64,000 nt of DNA, from positions 1-64,000 of the forward strand of contig JAPHRK010000003.1 in NCBI GenBank assembly GCA_026196105.1, read 5' to 3'. The stretch comes from Rhodospirillales bacterium. GTDB lineage: Bacteria; Pseudomonadota; Alphaproteobacteria; Rhodospirillales; JAPHRK01. Below, in pieces: positions 13,901 to 17,954 of the stretch. The notes under the pieces were generated by a model. That model saw nothing but the letters and a program-made list of their open reading frames with translations. It was not told where the DNA came from and searched no databases. The position numbers and the translations under genes are program-made. Position 1 is the stretch's first letter; every line of letters begins with the position of its first letter.

Positions 13901-15451
13901 TTAAGCGGAAATAGCTGCAGGAGCAGATTTTTCCCGTTTGACCAACAGCTTATTCAAGGCATTGATGTAAGCTTTAACCGAAGCCACCATGGTATCGGTG
14001 TCGGCACCCTGACCGTTAACGGTTTTGCCGTCTTCGGCTAAGCGCACAGTTACTTCAGCTTGGGCATCTGTTCCGCCTGTTACCGCATGTACCTGATACA
14101 GCTGCAATGTGGCTTCGGTTGGGAACAAGGTTTTGATGGCTTGGAAAGCAGAATCAACAGGGCCATCACCATGGGATTCACAAGATTTCTCTTCACCGTC
14201 GATTTCCAAGGTCAAGTTTGCGCCAGACTCTTTGGTGCCACATGAAACTTCCAATTCGACCAAGCGAACCCGGTCATTGGTACGAACGACTGAGTCATCG
14301 ACCAAGGCGATGATATCTTCATCGAAGACGTCTTTTTTCTTATCAGCCAAATCTTTAAAGCGCTTAAAGGCATCCTGGACCGCGTTGTCACCTAAGCCAT
14401 AGCCTAACTCCTTCAATTTTTCATTGAAGGCATGACGCCCAGAGTGTTTGCCCATAACCAACGTAGATTTTTTCAAGCCAACTGATTCAGGAGTCATGAT
14501 TTCGTAGGTTTGAGCGTTTTTCAACATGCCGTCTTGGTGAATGCCAGATTCATGAGCAAAAGCGTTGGCGCCAACAATGGCCTTGTTGGGTTGAACCGTG
14601 AAGCCGGTGATGGTTGAAACCAAACGAGAAGCTTTTGTGATGTGTTTGGTTTCAATACCAGTCGTATAAGGCATCACGTCTTGGCGGGTTTGCAAGCTCA
14701 TGACAACTTCTTCCAAGGCGCAGTTACCTGCGCGTTCGCCTAAGCCGTTAATGGTACACTCAACTTGTCGAGCCCCTGCACCAATAGCAGCCAAAGAGTT
14801 GGAAACAGCTAAGCCTAAGTCGTTATGGCAATGGGTCGACAAAATCGCTTTGTCGATATTTGGCACCCGATTGCGCAACATTTCAAAGATAGATGCATAT
14901 TCTGTCGGGATGCCATAGCCAACTGTGTCTGGAATGTTGATGGTGCTGGCACCGGCATTGATGGCGGCTTCAACGCATTTGCATAAGAAATCATGATCAG
15001 AACGAGAGCCATCTTCAGCTGACCATTCAACATCATCTACCTTGTCGCGGGCGAAGCTCACGCTTTTGGTGATCGCTTCCAACACTTGCTCAGGCTTCAT
15101 TTGCAATTTGAATTCCATATGCAAGGGGCTGGTGGCAATGAAAGTATGGATGCGTTTTCTTTCCGCAGGAGCGACCGCATCAACAGCTCGTGCGATGTCA
15201 CCGACAGCCGCGCGAGCTAAACCGCAGATGGTGGAATTCGTGACAATTTTGGCGATCTCGTTGACAGACTCGAAGTCACCATCAGAAGCAATAGGGAAAC
15301 CTGCTTCAATCACGTCTACGCCCATTTCTTCCAGAGTTAAGGCGATCCGTAACTTTTCGTCCAAGTTCATAGAGGCGCCGGGAGATTGTTCGCCGTCGCG
15401 CAAGGTGGTGTCGAAAATGACAACCCGGTTTGAATCCATTTGAGTACTCAT
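13901..15451 (-). CDS. leuA: 2-isopropylmalate synthase
   Basis: 516 aa. Catalytic TIM barrel starting with FDTTLRDGEQSPG (metal/substrate motif, about residues 13-25), with the HCHNDLG metal ligands and a GNCALEEVVM segment. A C-terminal LeuA allosteric domain (about 370-505) binds leucine. It condenses acetyl-CoA with 2-oxoisovalerate, the first committed step of leucine synthesis. The ATG has AAGGAT upstream. The roughly 500 bases upstream hold Leu-rich leader ORFs and a long hairpin, implying control by leucine supply in addition to feedback inhibition. leuB, leuC and leuD are not nearby. Confidence 0.97.
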   Translation of the reverse strand: MSTQMDSNRVVIFDTTLRDGEQSPGASMNLDEKLRIALTLEEMGVDVIEAGFPIASDGDFESVNEIAKIVTNSTICGLARAAVGDIARAVDAVAPAERKRIHTFIATSPLHMEFKLQMKPEQVLEAITKSVSFARDKVDDVEWSAEDGSRSDHDFLCKCVEAAINAGASTINIPDTVGYGIPTEYASIFEMLRNRVPNIDKAILSTHCHNDLGLAVSNSLAAIGAGARQVECTINGLGERAGNCALEEVVMSLQTRQDVMPYTTGIETKHITKASRLVSTITGFTVQPNKAIVGANAFAHESGIHQDGMLKNAQTYEIMTPESVGLKKSTLVMGKHSGRHAFNEKLKELGYGLGDNAVQDAFKRFKDLADKKKDVFDEDIIALVDDSVVRTNDRVRLVELEVSCGTKESGANLTLEIDGEEKSCESHGDGPVDSAFQAIKTLFPTEATLQLYQVHAVTGGTDAQAEVTVRLAEDGKTVNGQGADTDTMVASVKAYINALNKLLVKREKSAPAAISA

Positions 15452-15505
15452 CTTAATAATCCTTCGTTCTTAGATACATTCTTTGAAATTTGCTTTTTCT
15501 TTTTT

Positions 15506-15565
15506 CCCTTAAGCACCAGCCCATTTGGTGGGTTTCACCGGGTCTGATTAGTATGTGCTCAAGGG
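15506..15565 (-). promoter_or_regulatory. Long hairpin between the Leu-rich leader ORF and leuA
   Basis: On the leuA strand CCCTTGAGCAC (15565-15555) pairs with GTGCTTAAGGG (15516-15506) over 11 bp with one G-U. Its 5' arm overlaps the stop codon of the leader ORF and competes with a smaller upstream hairpin (GGCGC with GCGCC). This is the arrangement expected for an attenuator. However, an A-rich and not a U-rich tract follows, so it is not a standard intrinsic terminator on this strand. The mechanism is open. Confidence 0.5.
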
Positions 15566-15642
15566 CGCATAAGTCGTAGAGCGCCGCTTAGAAGGAGAAG
15601 TGAAGGTTGGGGCAAGGCACAAACAGGTGCTGTCGCAGTCAT
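15559..15642 (-). CDS. Candidate leucine leader peptide of leuA
   Basis: 27 codons from an ATG with GGAG five bases upstream. Seven of the 27 residues are Leu, including four in a row (CTT CTC CTT CTA) and then L-R-L-M-R-P before TGA. Leu-codon runs just before a competing hairpin are typical of ribosome-mediated attenuation. The stop overlaps the 5' arm of that hairpin. An in-frame ATG 16 codons earlier is possible but has a weaker ribosome site. Confidence 0.65.
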   Translation of the reverse strand: MTATAPVCALPQPSLLLLSGALRLMRP

Positions 15643-15755
15643 AAAGACTCCGTCTTGCCTGTCTGTATTGATTTTCCTTATGGGGATCATCAGTGCCGTC
15701 CAACTTTTAAAATTTAAACACCAGCTTAGTTTGCCAGCATTTTGTTAATGCTTAG

Positions 15756-15785
15756 ATAAAAAGGATTTACCGCCTTTAATGTCAA
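15756..15785 (-). promoter_or_regulatory. Possible sigma-70 promoter for the leuA leader
   Basis: TTGACA (perfect -35) is followed after 17 bases by TTTTTA, a poor -10 that can be shifted by one base to TTTTAT. Transcription would begin about 110 bases before the candidate leader ORF and would leave the more distal Leu-rich ORF upstream of this promoter. Confidence 0.45.
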
Positions 15786-15862
15786 CCTGTTTCAGGTGAT
15801 TTTAGCGATATGTTTTCCTAAGTTCCGGCTTTTGAGCTTTTGCCCACGCCAATCTAGGGAAC

Positions 15863-15982
15863 CTAGGCGGCCATAAGTCGTAGGAGAAGACTTAGGAGGG
15901 TAACACCAAGCAGCGCGAAACCGCCGGCAACCATAAGGCTGTCGTTGCGTTTTTCAATCGCGATGGCTTTTGCTCTGCGCAT
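15863..15982 (-). CDS. Second, distal Leu-rich small ORF upstream of leuA
   Basis: 39 codons starting ATG at 15982. The last 16 residues include eight Leu (LLGVTLLSLLLRLMAA), and the codons CTA CGA CTT ATG (L-R-L-M) recur in frame in the proximal leader. Downstream, CTAGGTTCC and GGAACTTAG can form a 9-bp stem with one wobble, and CCTAAGT inside the ORF can pair with the distal ACTTAGG, so alternative folds exist. It could be a duplicated leucine attenuator. Equally, its hydrophobic second half could be one membrane helix of a true small protein. The ribosome site is weak. Confidence 0.45.
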   Translation of the reverse strand: MRRAKAIAIEKRNDSLMVAGGFALLGVTLLSLLLRLMAA

Positions 15983-16172
15983 AGTGCTTTTTCACTCTCT
16001 TCAATATGACTTTGTTTAGAAAAACTCAAAATCGCTTCAATTGCAAGAAAGATTCAGAAAAAAAATCAAATTGGCCTTCATTCAGATATTTGAATCGTTA
16101 TCTCAGCTTTTAATCTGGTTGAAATGCTCTAAGGTAAAAGCAATTAAAAGGCAAATTTAGGTAGAGGTTAGA

Positions 16173-17954
16173 ATGCATTCGCTCGTACCGTCGGAACAAC
16201 TTGATCCTGAAAATGCTATCGAGATAGCTGATGGTGTTTGGTGGGTCGGACATTATCTGGAAGGTGATCCTTTCCAGTGTCATGTTTATCTGATTGAACA
16301 TGGAGACCAATCGATTCTCTTCGATCCTGGTTCAAAACTAACCTTTAATCACACCCTCAGGAAAATCGAGCAAGTTACCTCATTTTCCAATATTCGTTAT
16401 TTTGTTTGCCAGCATCAGGACCCGGATATAACCGGAGCCATGCAAATCATTGATAAGATGATTTCACGAGATGATGCTGTTCTGGTCACTCATTGGCGGG
16501 CGATGGTTTTATTGCGTCATTATGATCTCAAAATTCCCTTTTGGCTGGTTAATGAGAACGATTGGAAGCTTGATATAGGCGGGAGAAAACTTAGCTTTAC
16601 CTTCACACCATACGCCCATTTTCCAGGAGCATTTTGCTCGTTTGATGAACAGACCCGTACTTTGTTTTCAAGTGATTTGTTTGGCGGTTTTACGGAAGGA
16701 TTTTCTCTGGTTGCCAAGGATGAATCTTATTTCGAGTCCTTGCGGCCTTTCCATGAACATTATATGCCGAGCCGAGATATTCTCGCCTTTGCAATAAATG
16801 AACTCCAACAGCACGACATCAAAATTATTGCCCCCCAACATGGCTCAATTATTCCGGATCATTTGGTTAATTTCATGATGGAAAATCTGAAGAGCTTAGA
16901 TTGTGGGCTTTTTCTTCTCGCCTCTGAAACGTCGGATATTTTTTCTATTTCCAAGATGAATAAAATTCTTCAGGAAATTACTCAAACCATGGTGCTTTAC
17001 CGTGATTTCAAAGATATTGTCGATGCGTTAGTTAAGATTATACAGCAAATTCTTCCTGCAGAATCTCTAGAATTCTATGCCCAAACGGAAATTCATGAAG
17101 AGGATGTTTTACACCTTGCCCCTGAAACCAGGTATAGAGGGATTTTCACTCCTGCGCCCAAGTTTTTAGATGATTTAATTGGGGTTGATAAAAGTAAATA
17201 TGACAAAGAACAGGCCAAACATTACGTAAAAATAACGGGTGCTGAAGACAAGCTTCCCCGACTTGTTATTCCCCTATTTAATCAGGAACAGCAAACAGCC
17301 AAAAACATTGTGATTATTAAGCTTGAACGGGATATCACCATGACCCGAGATATCGAGCAAATGATTGAGCAAACGACAATTCCTCTCCAAGTCGCGGTTG
17401 AACGTGAGAGTATTTATCGTTTTCTCGAAATGGAGCGCCAGAAACATTACGAGCGTTCGATCAGAGATTCTCTTACAGGTCTTTTTACGCGCTATTACAT
17501 GAACGAAACCCTGCAAAGGCAATTTGAAATTCATGACCGGGAAGGCGAGCCTGAAATTGCACTAGCAATGTTTGATATCGATCACTTTAAAAAGGTGAAT
17601 GATACCTTTGGTCACAATGTGGGTGATTTGGTTTTGACCAGTATTGCTGCGATTATTCGCAATTCTTCACGTGGTGGTGATATTCCGGTGCGTTTGGGTG
17701 GTGAAGAATTTGCCCTCTTTATTATAGGTAAATCGGCAACAGATATTGCCGCTATTGCAGAAAGAACACGAGTTATCGTAGAGCGGACGGTCTTTGCAAA
17801 ACTTGGCGATCAGAAAAGTGTCACCATAAGCGGTGGAATTGGCACTCGTGTAAAAAAAGAAACTCTAGAAAGTTTCTTTAAACGAGTAGACCAAGCTCTT
17901 TATGAGGCAAAAAATTCAGGTCGTAATCGTATTTGTGAAGCAGTAAAGCCTTAA
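16173..17954 (+). CDS. MBL-fold (oxygen-binding diiron type)-GAF-GGDEF diguanylate cyclase
   Basis: 593 aa. Residues 1-250 form a metallo-beta-lactamase domain like flavodiiron/ODP proteins, with candidate metal ligands H81, D83, D85 (HQDPDITG), H149, D168 and H223; the sixth-ligand His of classic HxExDH is Ile here. A GAF-like region follows (about 255-425). The GGDEF domain has an intact GGEEF active site and an RxxD inhibitory site five residues before it (RGGD-IPVRL-GGEEF). It should make c-di-GMP in response to a diiron-sensed signal such as O2, NO or redox state. Cytoplasmic, no membrane segment. It is convergent with prmA and overlaps it by four bases. Confidence 0.85.
   Translation: MHSLVPSEQLDPENAIEIADGVWWVGHYLEGDPFQCHVYLIEHGDQSILFDPGSKLTFNHTLRKIEQVTSFSNIRYFVCQHQDPDITGAMQIIDKMISRDDAVLVTHWRAMVLLRHYDLKIPFWLVNENDWKLDIGGRKLSFTFTPYAHFPGAFCSFDEQTRTLFSSDLFGGFTEGFSLVAKDESYFESLRPFHEHYMPSRDILAFAINELQQHDIKIIAPQHGSIIPDHLVNFMMENLKSLDCGLFLLASETSDIFSISKMNKILQEITQTMVLYRDFKDIVDALVKIIQQILPAESLEFYAQTEIHEEDVLHLAPETRYRGIFTPAPKFLDDLIGVDKSKYDKEQAKHYVKITGAEDKLPRLVIPLFNQEQQTAKNIVIIKLERDITMTRDIEQMIEQTTIPLQVAVERESIYRFLEMERQKHYERSIRDSLTGLFTRYYMNETLQRQFEIHDREGEPEIALAMFDIDHFKKVNDTFGHNVGDLVLTSIAAIIRNSSRGGDIPVRLGGEEFALFIIGKSATDIAAIAERTRVIVERTVFAKLGDQKSVTISGGIGTRVKKETLESFFKRVDQALYEAKNSGRNRICEAVKP

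Follow-up and report, generated by a model that had tools for sequence, protein, structure and literature searches.

A leucine-rich leader ORF as a probable translational attenuator of leuA in a Rhodospirillales bacterium, with a second leader-like ORF upstream of the likely leuA promoter

Introduction

Two short leucine-rich ORFs stand in tandem ahead of leuA in the 64,000-nt stretch of Rhodospirillales DNA analysed here (the window), and this arrangement raises the question of whether both of them sense leucine. An earlier note, made from the sequence alone, had offered two readings, a duplicated attenuator giving stepwise leucine sensing, or a single attenuator accompanied by a small membrane protein. 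We consider it quite probable that a single leucine attenuator is present at the locus, namely the proximal ORF, which most likely acts on the start of leuA translation. The distal ORF is probably not a second leucine sensor.

Results

Organization of the leuA locus

All elements of the leader region lie on the minus strand. The regulated gene, leuA (13901-15451), encodes a 2-isopropylmalate synthase of 516 aa with the Pfam domains HMGL-like, HCS_D2 and LeuA_dimer, and its product shares at most 79% identity with those of relatives. Its Shine-Dalgarno sequence (SD), GAAGGA, is at 15460-15465. The proximal leader ORF (15559-15642, 27 codons, MTATAPVCALPQPSLLLLSGALRLMRP) is preceded by a GGAG at 15651-15648 and ends in SLLLLSGALRLMRP before the stop codon, while an alternative in-frame ATG at 15690 would give an ORF of 43 codons. 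It contains a run of four Leu codons (CTTCTCCTTCTA, 15589-15600), which in the modelled leader RNA is also the anti-Shine-Dalgarno. The distal ORF (15863-15982, 39 codons) ends in LLSLLLRLMAA before its stop codon. The 64 kb contain the 12-mer CTACGACTTATG in exactly two places, 15579-15568 and 15883-15872, where it is read in the same frame of the proximal and the distal ORF. The two Leu-rich ORFs and their shared 12-mer, as reported in the earlier note, are real. The divergent neighbour of leuA (16173-17954, plus strand) encodes a protein in which an ODP-type metallo-beta-lactamase fold domain is joined to a GGDEF diguanylate cyclase domain.

Conservation of the proximal ORF as a leuA leader in Alphaproteobacteria

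In the loci of relatives, a Leu-rich ORF is located about 80-180 nt before leuA and mostly ends in L-x-L-[RISTM]-x-P-stop; at the nucleotide level a motif resembling CTTCGACTTAGGTGCCCCTGA recurs, with TTCAGGGG downstream of it. Leu accounts for 34% of the five codons directly upstream of the core in the relatives' loci that were selected by regular expression, and a short Leu-rich ORF upstream of this leucine biosynthesis gene is conserved in relatives. Sixty of the 69 selected loci, the window excluded, were aligned (alignment A1), and the covariance model R1 was built from these 60 relatives. Because the loci were picked by a regular expression, the letters of the core columns in A1 are partly conserved by selection. 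Moreover, the A1 members match R1 by construction, and their pairing partners were located by complementarity, which itself favours pairing.

In the window, R1 identified the proximal element (15594-15500) with 44.6 bits and an E-value of 1.2e-11, the best of two matches in the 64 kb. The model matched 187 of 297 genomes of the order at E≤0.1, leaving 110 without a match at that threshold, as well as 88 of 289 genomes of the class (E≤1e-4) and 53 of 299 genomes of the phylum, where all of the matches listed belong to the class of the window. Many of the R1-positive genomes are absent from A1. At the family level the genome sampling consisted of this genome alone. Weak second R1 matches in G003, G049, G009, G071 and G176 proved on inspection to be repeat-rich coding or unrelated regions, and no leader before another leucine gene was recognised among them; the antisense R1 matches found among 100 leuA loci are the helix read off the opposite strand. 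Ten leuA loci (L020, L033, L035, L038, L039, L046, L049, L052, L053 and L064) gave no R1 match, and in three of these, L033 and L035 (with Magnetospirillum titles) and L039, a TTGACA and a TATA-like box stand near leuA, apparently without a leader. In L051 (2672-2755) and L037 (2775-2905) the element is unusually distant, with its stop codon about 180-240 nt before the leuA start, and therefore control there may differ.

A covarying stop-codon helix without an intrinsic terminator

The 5' arm of the proximal stem (CCCTTGAGCAC, 15565-15555) contains the leader stop codon and pairs with the 3' arm (GTGCTTAAGGG, 15516-15506), and none of 2000 shuffles gave a stem as good. The homologous helix in A1 has 11 pairs, with 92.0% of 638 cells paired and changes on both sides in seven of the 11 pairs. 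Its covariation is 0.239, as against 0.158 in shuffles (0/500 as high), and falls to 0.061 or less when the helix is slid out of register. A conserved RNA structure is thus tied to the leader. The claim that a Leu-codon attenuator precedes leuA is supported, for the proximal ORF, by this helix together with the R1 score, and the alignment of the upstream regions of relatives, proposed in the earlier note as a check, brought out a covarying, Leu-rich proximal element and no counterpart of the distal ORF.

An A-rich sequence follows the 3' arm of the proximal stem. There is no U-tract after either the proximal or the distal stem in the window, and no terminator-like site at the proximal one; among relatives, at least 5 T within the 10 nt after the helix were found in only 3 of 67. 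No intrinsic terminator, i.e. a stem with a U-tract, was found before leuA, and because the U-tract is lacking the proximal element is not an intrinsic-terminator attenuator. The distal stem, whose 5' arm (CCTAGGTTCC, 15867-15858) lies over the distal stop codon and pairs with GGAACTTAGG (15826-15817), was equalled by 195 of 2000 shuffles and is not above chance. The stems said to compete after each ORF are both present, but only the proximal one exceeds chance; it is not a terminator, and the evidence favours control at the start of translation.

Predicted sequestration of the leuA Shine-Dalgarno sequence

Pairing and ribosome occupancy were modelled in 66 of the 69 selected loci (L056, L070 and L073 were dropped for unclear arms). 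The pairing energy of a leader segment with the downstream segment of the same locus is -21.1 kcal/mol, versus -18.3 kcal/mol with those of other genomes (0/5000 permutations), and the advantage persists when the permutations are stratified by GC content (0/5000). Pairing with the own segment is also favoured over that with the same segment reversed (Wilcoxon p 8.5e-5), and the matched energy is below the mean of the locus's own shuffles in 47 of the 66 loci. Placing a ribosome on the conserved CTT codon in the model raises mean SD unpairing from 0.28 to 0.45, with an increase of more than 0.2 in 25 loci and a decrease of more than 0.2 in two. With a ribosome at the stop codon the mean in relatives is 0.37, i.e. 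the SD opens somewhat there too.

In the window RNA, the Leu-codon run is predicted to pair with the leuA SD (15591-15596 with 15460-15465, P=0.96). The unpaired probability of the SD is 0.02 in the free RNA and 0.61 and 0.64 when the Leu run is masked as by a stalled ribosome. A ribosome at LRLM gives 0.25 at CTA and 0.02 at CTT, and one on the stop codon 0.15, so that the SD of the window is fully opened only by a ribosome on the upstream Leu run, and one on the conserved LRLM codon CTT leaves it closed. The simple duplex between the leader segment and the downstream one is weak here (-12.0 kcal/mol, equalled by 89% of other partners). These predictions apply to a transcript from the conserved promoter described below; for one starting near 16000, the SD behaviour is predicted to be different and partly reversed, with values of 0.14 and 0.04 for a ribosome on the Leu run and 0.67 for one at the stop codon.

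A conserved promoter between the two ORFs

Between the two ORFs lies a TTGACA-N18-TTTTAT (15756-15785), with the -35 hexamer at 15785-15780 and TTTTAT 18 nt further on, at 15761-15756. In 28 of 32 loci of the order, the window being among the 32, a TTGAC precedes the leader motif by 171-237 nt, and after most of these boxes comes a T-rich, -10-like hexamer. The distance from TTGACA to the leader motif in the window, 209 nt, is typical. Since its position is matched in so many loci of the order, TTGACA is likely the leuA promoter, which supports the role that had been suggested for it. As it belongs to a conserved leuA promoter, the distal ORF lies upstream of that promoter, its end being 77 nt away.

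The distal ORF has a leader-like end

R1 scored the distal ORF at 9.1 bits (E 0.38), its second-best match in the 64 kb, and with filters off on a 781-nt region the E-value was 0.004. In a stop-anchored profile made from relatives, the distal end reached 12.5 bits. Among the 3078 open stop-anchored frames of the window a single one scored higher, and the next one below it had 1.8. In this profile the range for true leaders from one genus is 11.3 to 15.0. In other loci, 6 of 27,086 frames scoring below 22 attain the score of the distal ORF; five of them are leuA leaders and the sixth is the second leader of L008. Synonymous recoding of the distal peptide reached the profile score in 57 of 20,000 cases. 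The last codons of the distal ORF match the leader motif better than chance, and it is therefore possibly a relic of a duplicated leader unit. The raw nucleotide similarity of the two regions is weak, with 466 of 5000 shuffles as good and no significant pairwise alignment.

No second same-strand R1 copy was found upstream of leuA in 100 loci, a set in which 89 loci have a main R1 match at E≤0.001, some genomes are included twice, and the Pelagibacteraceae-titled loci are represented only by L070 with a weak partial match. No second leader that is conserved with a structure of its own was found. In addition, no homologue of the 39-aa distal product was found in the 296 other genomes of the order, nor any Pfam match to it. 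The codon usage of the distal ORF is gene-like: the log-odds of 10.3 is above that of 99.4% of 312 open wrong frames, 59% of real 39-codon gene pieces score no higher, and most of the value comes from the first 26 codons (7.6). The proximal leader is neutral in this respect (log-odds 0.4). The distal peptide has a basic start followed by a hydrophobic stretch. Modelled ribosomes on the distal ORF left access to the proximal leader start at 0.46 and hardly changed access to the leuA SD (from 0.16 to 0.20 or 0.16).

Duplicated leader-leuA units in relatives

Two genomes from two other families of the order carry further copies. In G066 the order is leader-leuA-leader-leuA, with leaders at 905-1009 and 2750-2842 of L144 (G066:C4) and a second leuA shortened to 323 aa. 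In G020 a leader-like end lies 200 nt after leuA, at the end of the contig (L008 3210-3248), and another contig carries a leuA with two internal stops that is preceded by a leader end (L145 1584-1637); we infer that these two contigs adjoin. The copies in G066 and G020 indicate that duplication and decay of the unit occur in the order. Loss of the first leuA copy would leave a leader at the position of the distal ORF.

Discussion

The proximal element is best read as a translational attenuator, like the actinobacterial LEU element compared below, a reading that draws on the computed conservation of the leader, the covarying stop-codon helix, the missing U-tract, the conserved position of the promoter and the predicted pairing. 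Transcription would begin just downstream of the conserved promoter (15785-15756). When leucine is ample, ribosomes would complete the 27-codon leader, after which the Leu run (15600-15589) could pair with the leuA SD (15465-15460). This pairing would form the base of a structure that has the stop-codon helix as its core, and with the SD paired the translation of leuA would be kept low. When charged tRNA-Leu is scarce, a ribosome would be expected to stall on the Leu run and cover the anti-Shine-Dalgarno, by which the leuA start would be freed.

The same element could be conceived as a classical attenuator of transcription that works through an intrinsic or a Rho-dependent terminator, for it combines a leader peptide carrying regulatory codons with a strong stem, and Rho-dependent attenuators need no U-tract. 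We regard this reading as unlikely in view of the A-rich tail after the stem, the scarcity of T-rich tails among the relatives, the lack of a terminator-like site at the proximal stem, and the pairing between leader and SD region that is favoured across relatives.

As for the distal ORF, two working tandem attenuators on one transcript would explain why both ORFs carry the same 12-mer in the same frame and the same LRLM-x-x-stop ending, and why the distal end scores so high in the profile and is so seldom matched by recoding. We nevertheless find the stepwise sensing proposed earlier very improbable: a promoter conserved in the order separates the ORFs and speaks against a shared leader transcript, the distal stem is at chance level, none of the 100 loci has a second copy upstream of leuA, and ribosomes placed on the distal ORF have no modelled effect downstream. 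There is likewise very little chance, in our estimate, that an upstream promoter yields a longer transcript on which the distal ORF works as a second leucine sensor, duplication of the leader unit having produced a two-promoter, two-sensor attenuator in which one promoter bypasses the distal sensor and the other does not.

We therefore place the distal ORF outside the proposed switch and see in it either what is left, after divergence, of a duplicated leader unit or the gene of an unrelated small membrane protein. That it is the relic of a duplicated leader-leuA unit, of which the first leuA was lost and the leader left upstream of the survivor's promoter, has about an even chance in our view. 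The leader motif stands at the right phase in the distal ORF, duplications of this kind are present in G066 and G020, and the position upstream of the surviving promoter is as expected; against this, no leuA-like stretch beyond chance lies between the two leaders (best E 0.51), the sequences upstream of them show no similarity, the decaying copy is the downstream one in both G066 and G020, and the distal codon usage is gene-like. A search near the distal ORF found no leuA remnant or copied promoter, and the relic origin is therefore proposed rather than asserted. A single-pass small membrane protein, whose Leu-rich end would have become leader-like by convergence, is a possibility of some weight, to which the gene-like codon log-odds, the hydrophobic stretch after a basic start and the separation from the leuA promoter are all congenial. 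It has to contend with the lack of a homologue in the order or a Pfam match, and with a leader-motif match that is better at the nucleotide level than the peptide accounts for, as the recodings show. The other suggestion of the earlier note, with a single attenuator and a small membrane protein, holds for the attenuator; the membrane protein is possible, and a relic at least as likely.

The proximal element is widespread in Alphaproteobacteria, covaries, and is absent from Rfam 15 in the tested sequences, and R1 can be used for annotating leuA control across the class. If the proposed switch is true, leucine attenuation would operate at translation start, the Leu codons serving at the same time as the anti-Shine-Dalgarno, and such attenuation would have arisen in, or be common to, both Actinobacteria and Alphaproteobacteria. 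Furthermore, the copies in relatives illustrate that leader-leuA units duplicate and decay.

Comparison with known systems

With the classical leucine transcription attenuator (Rfam Leu_leader), the proximal element shares a Leu-codon-rich leader peptide upstream of leuA and a mutually exclusive use of the leader RNA, and it differs in having no intrinsic terminator and a predicted action on the SD. No Rfam 15 family reached its gathering score in the window or in 10 relatives, and a permissive scan gave unrelated chance matches only. Vitreschak et al. 2004 reportedly treated proteobacterial attenuation and may mention alphaproteobacterial leu leaders. The literature search, which covered few subscription papers, returned no paper recognisably on an alphaproteobacterial leuA leader.

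The tandem attenuators of Salmonella mgtCBR (PMC3641672) likewise have two short ORFs upstream of the gene, but here a conserved promoter separates the ORFs, and a shared transcript is therefore not required. As in translational attenuators such as ermB (PMC8274638), a stalled ribosome would free a hidden ribosome-binding site, although the signal here would be scarcity of charged tRNA-Leu and not an antibiotic. In its anatomy the proximal element comes closest to the actinobacterial LEU element of leuA, for which Seliverstov et al. 2005 (PMC1262725) describe a conserved pseudoknot; they were doubtful that translation of the leader exerts control and suggested a protein instead. In both, a leader ORF with a run of Leu codons precedes leuA without a terminator, and the base stem is formed by Leu codons and the leuA SD, which for the window is a prediction. 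The present host belongs to a different phylum. The likeness is one of anatomy, and the proximal element is not classed as LEU.
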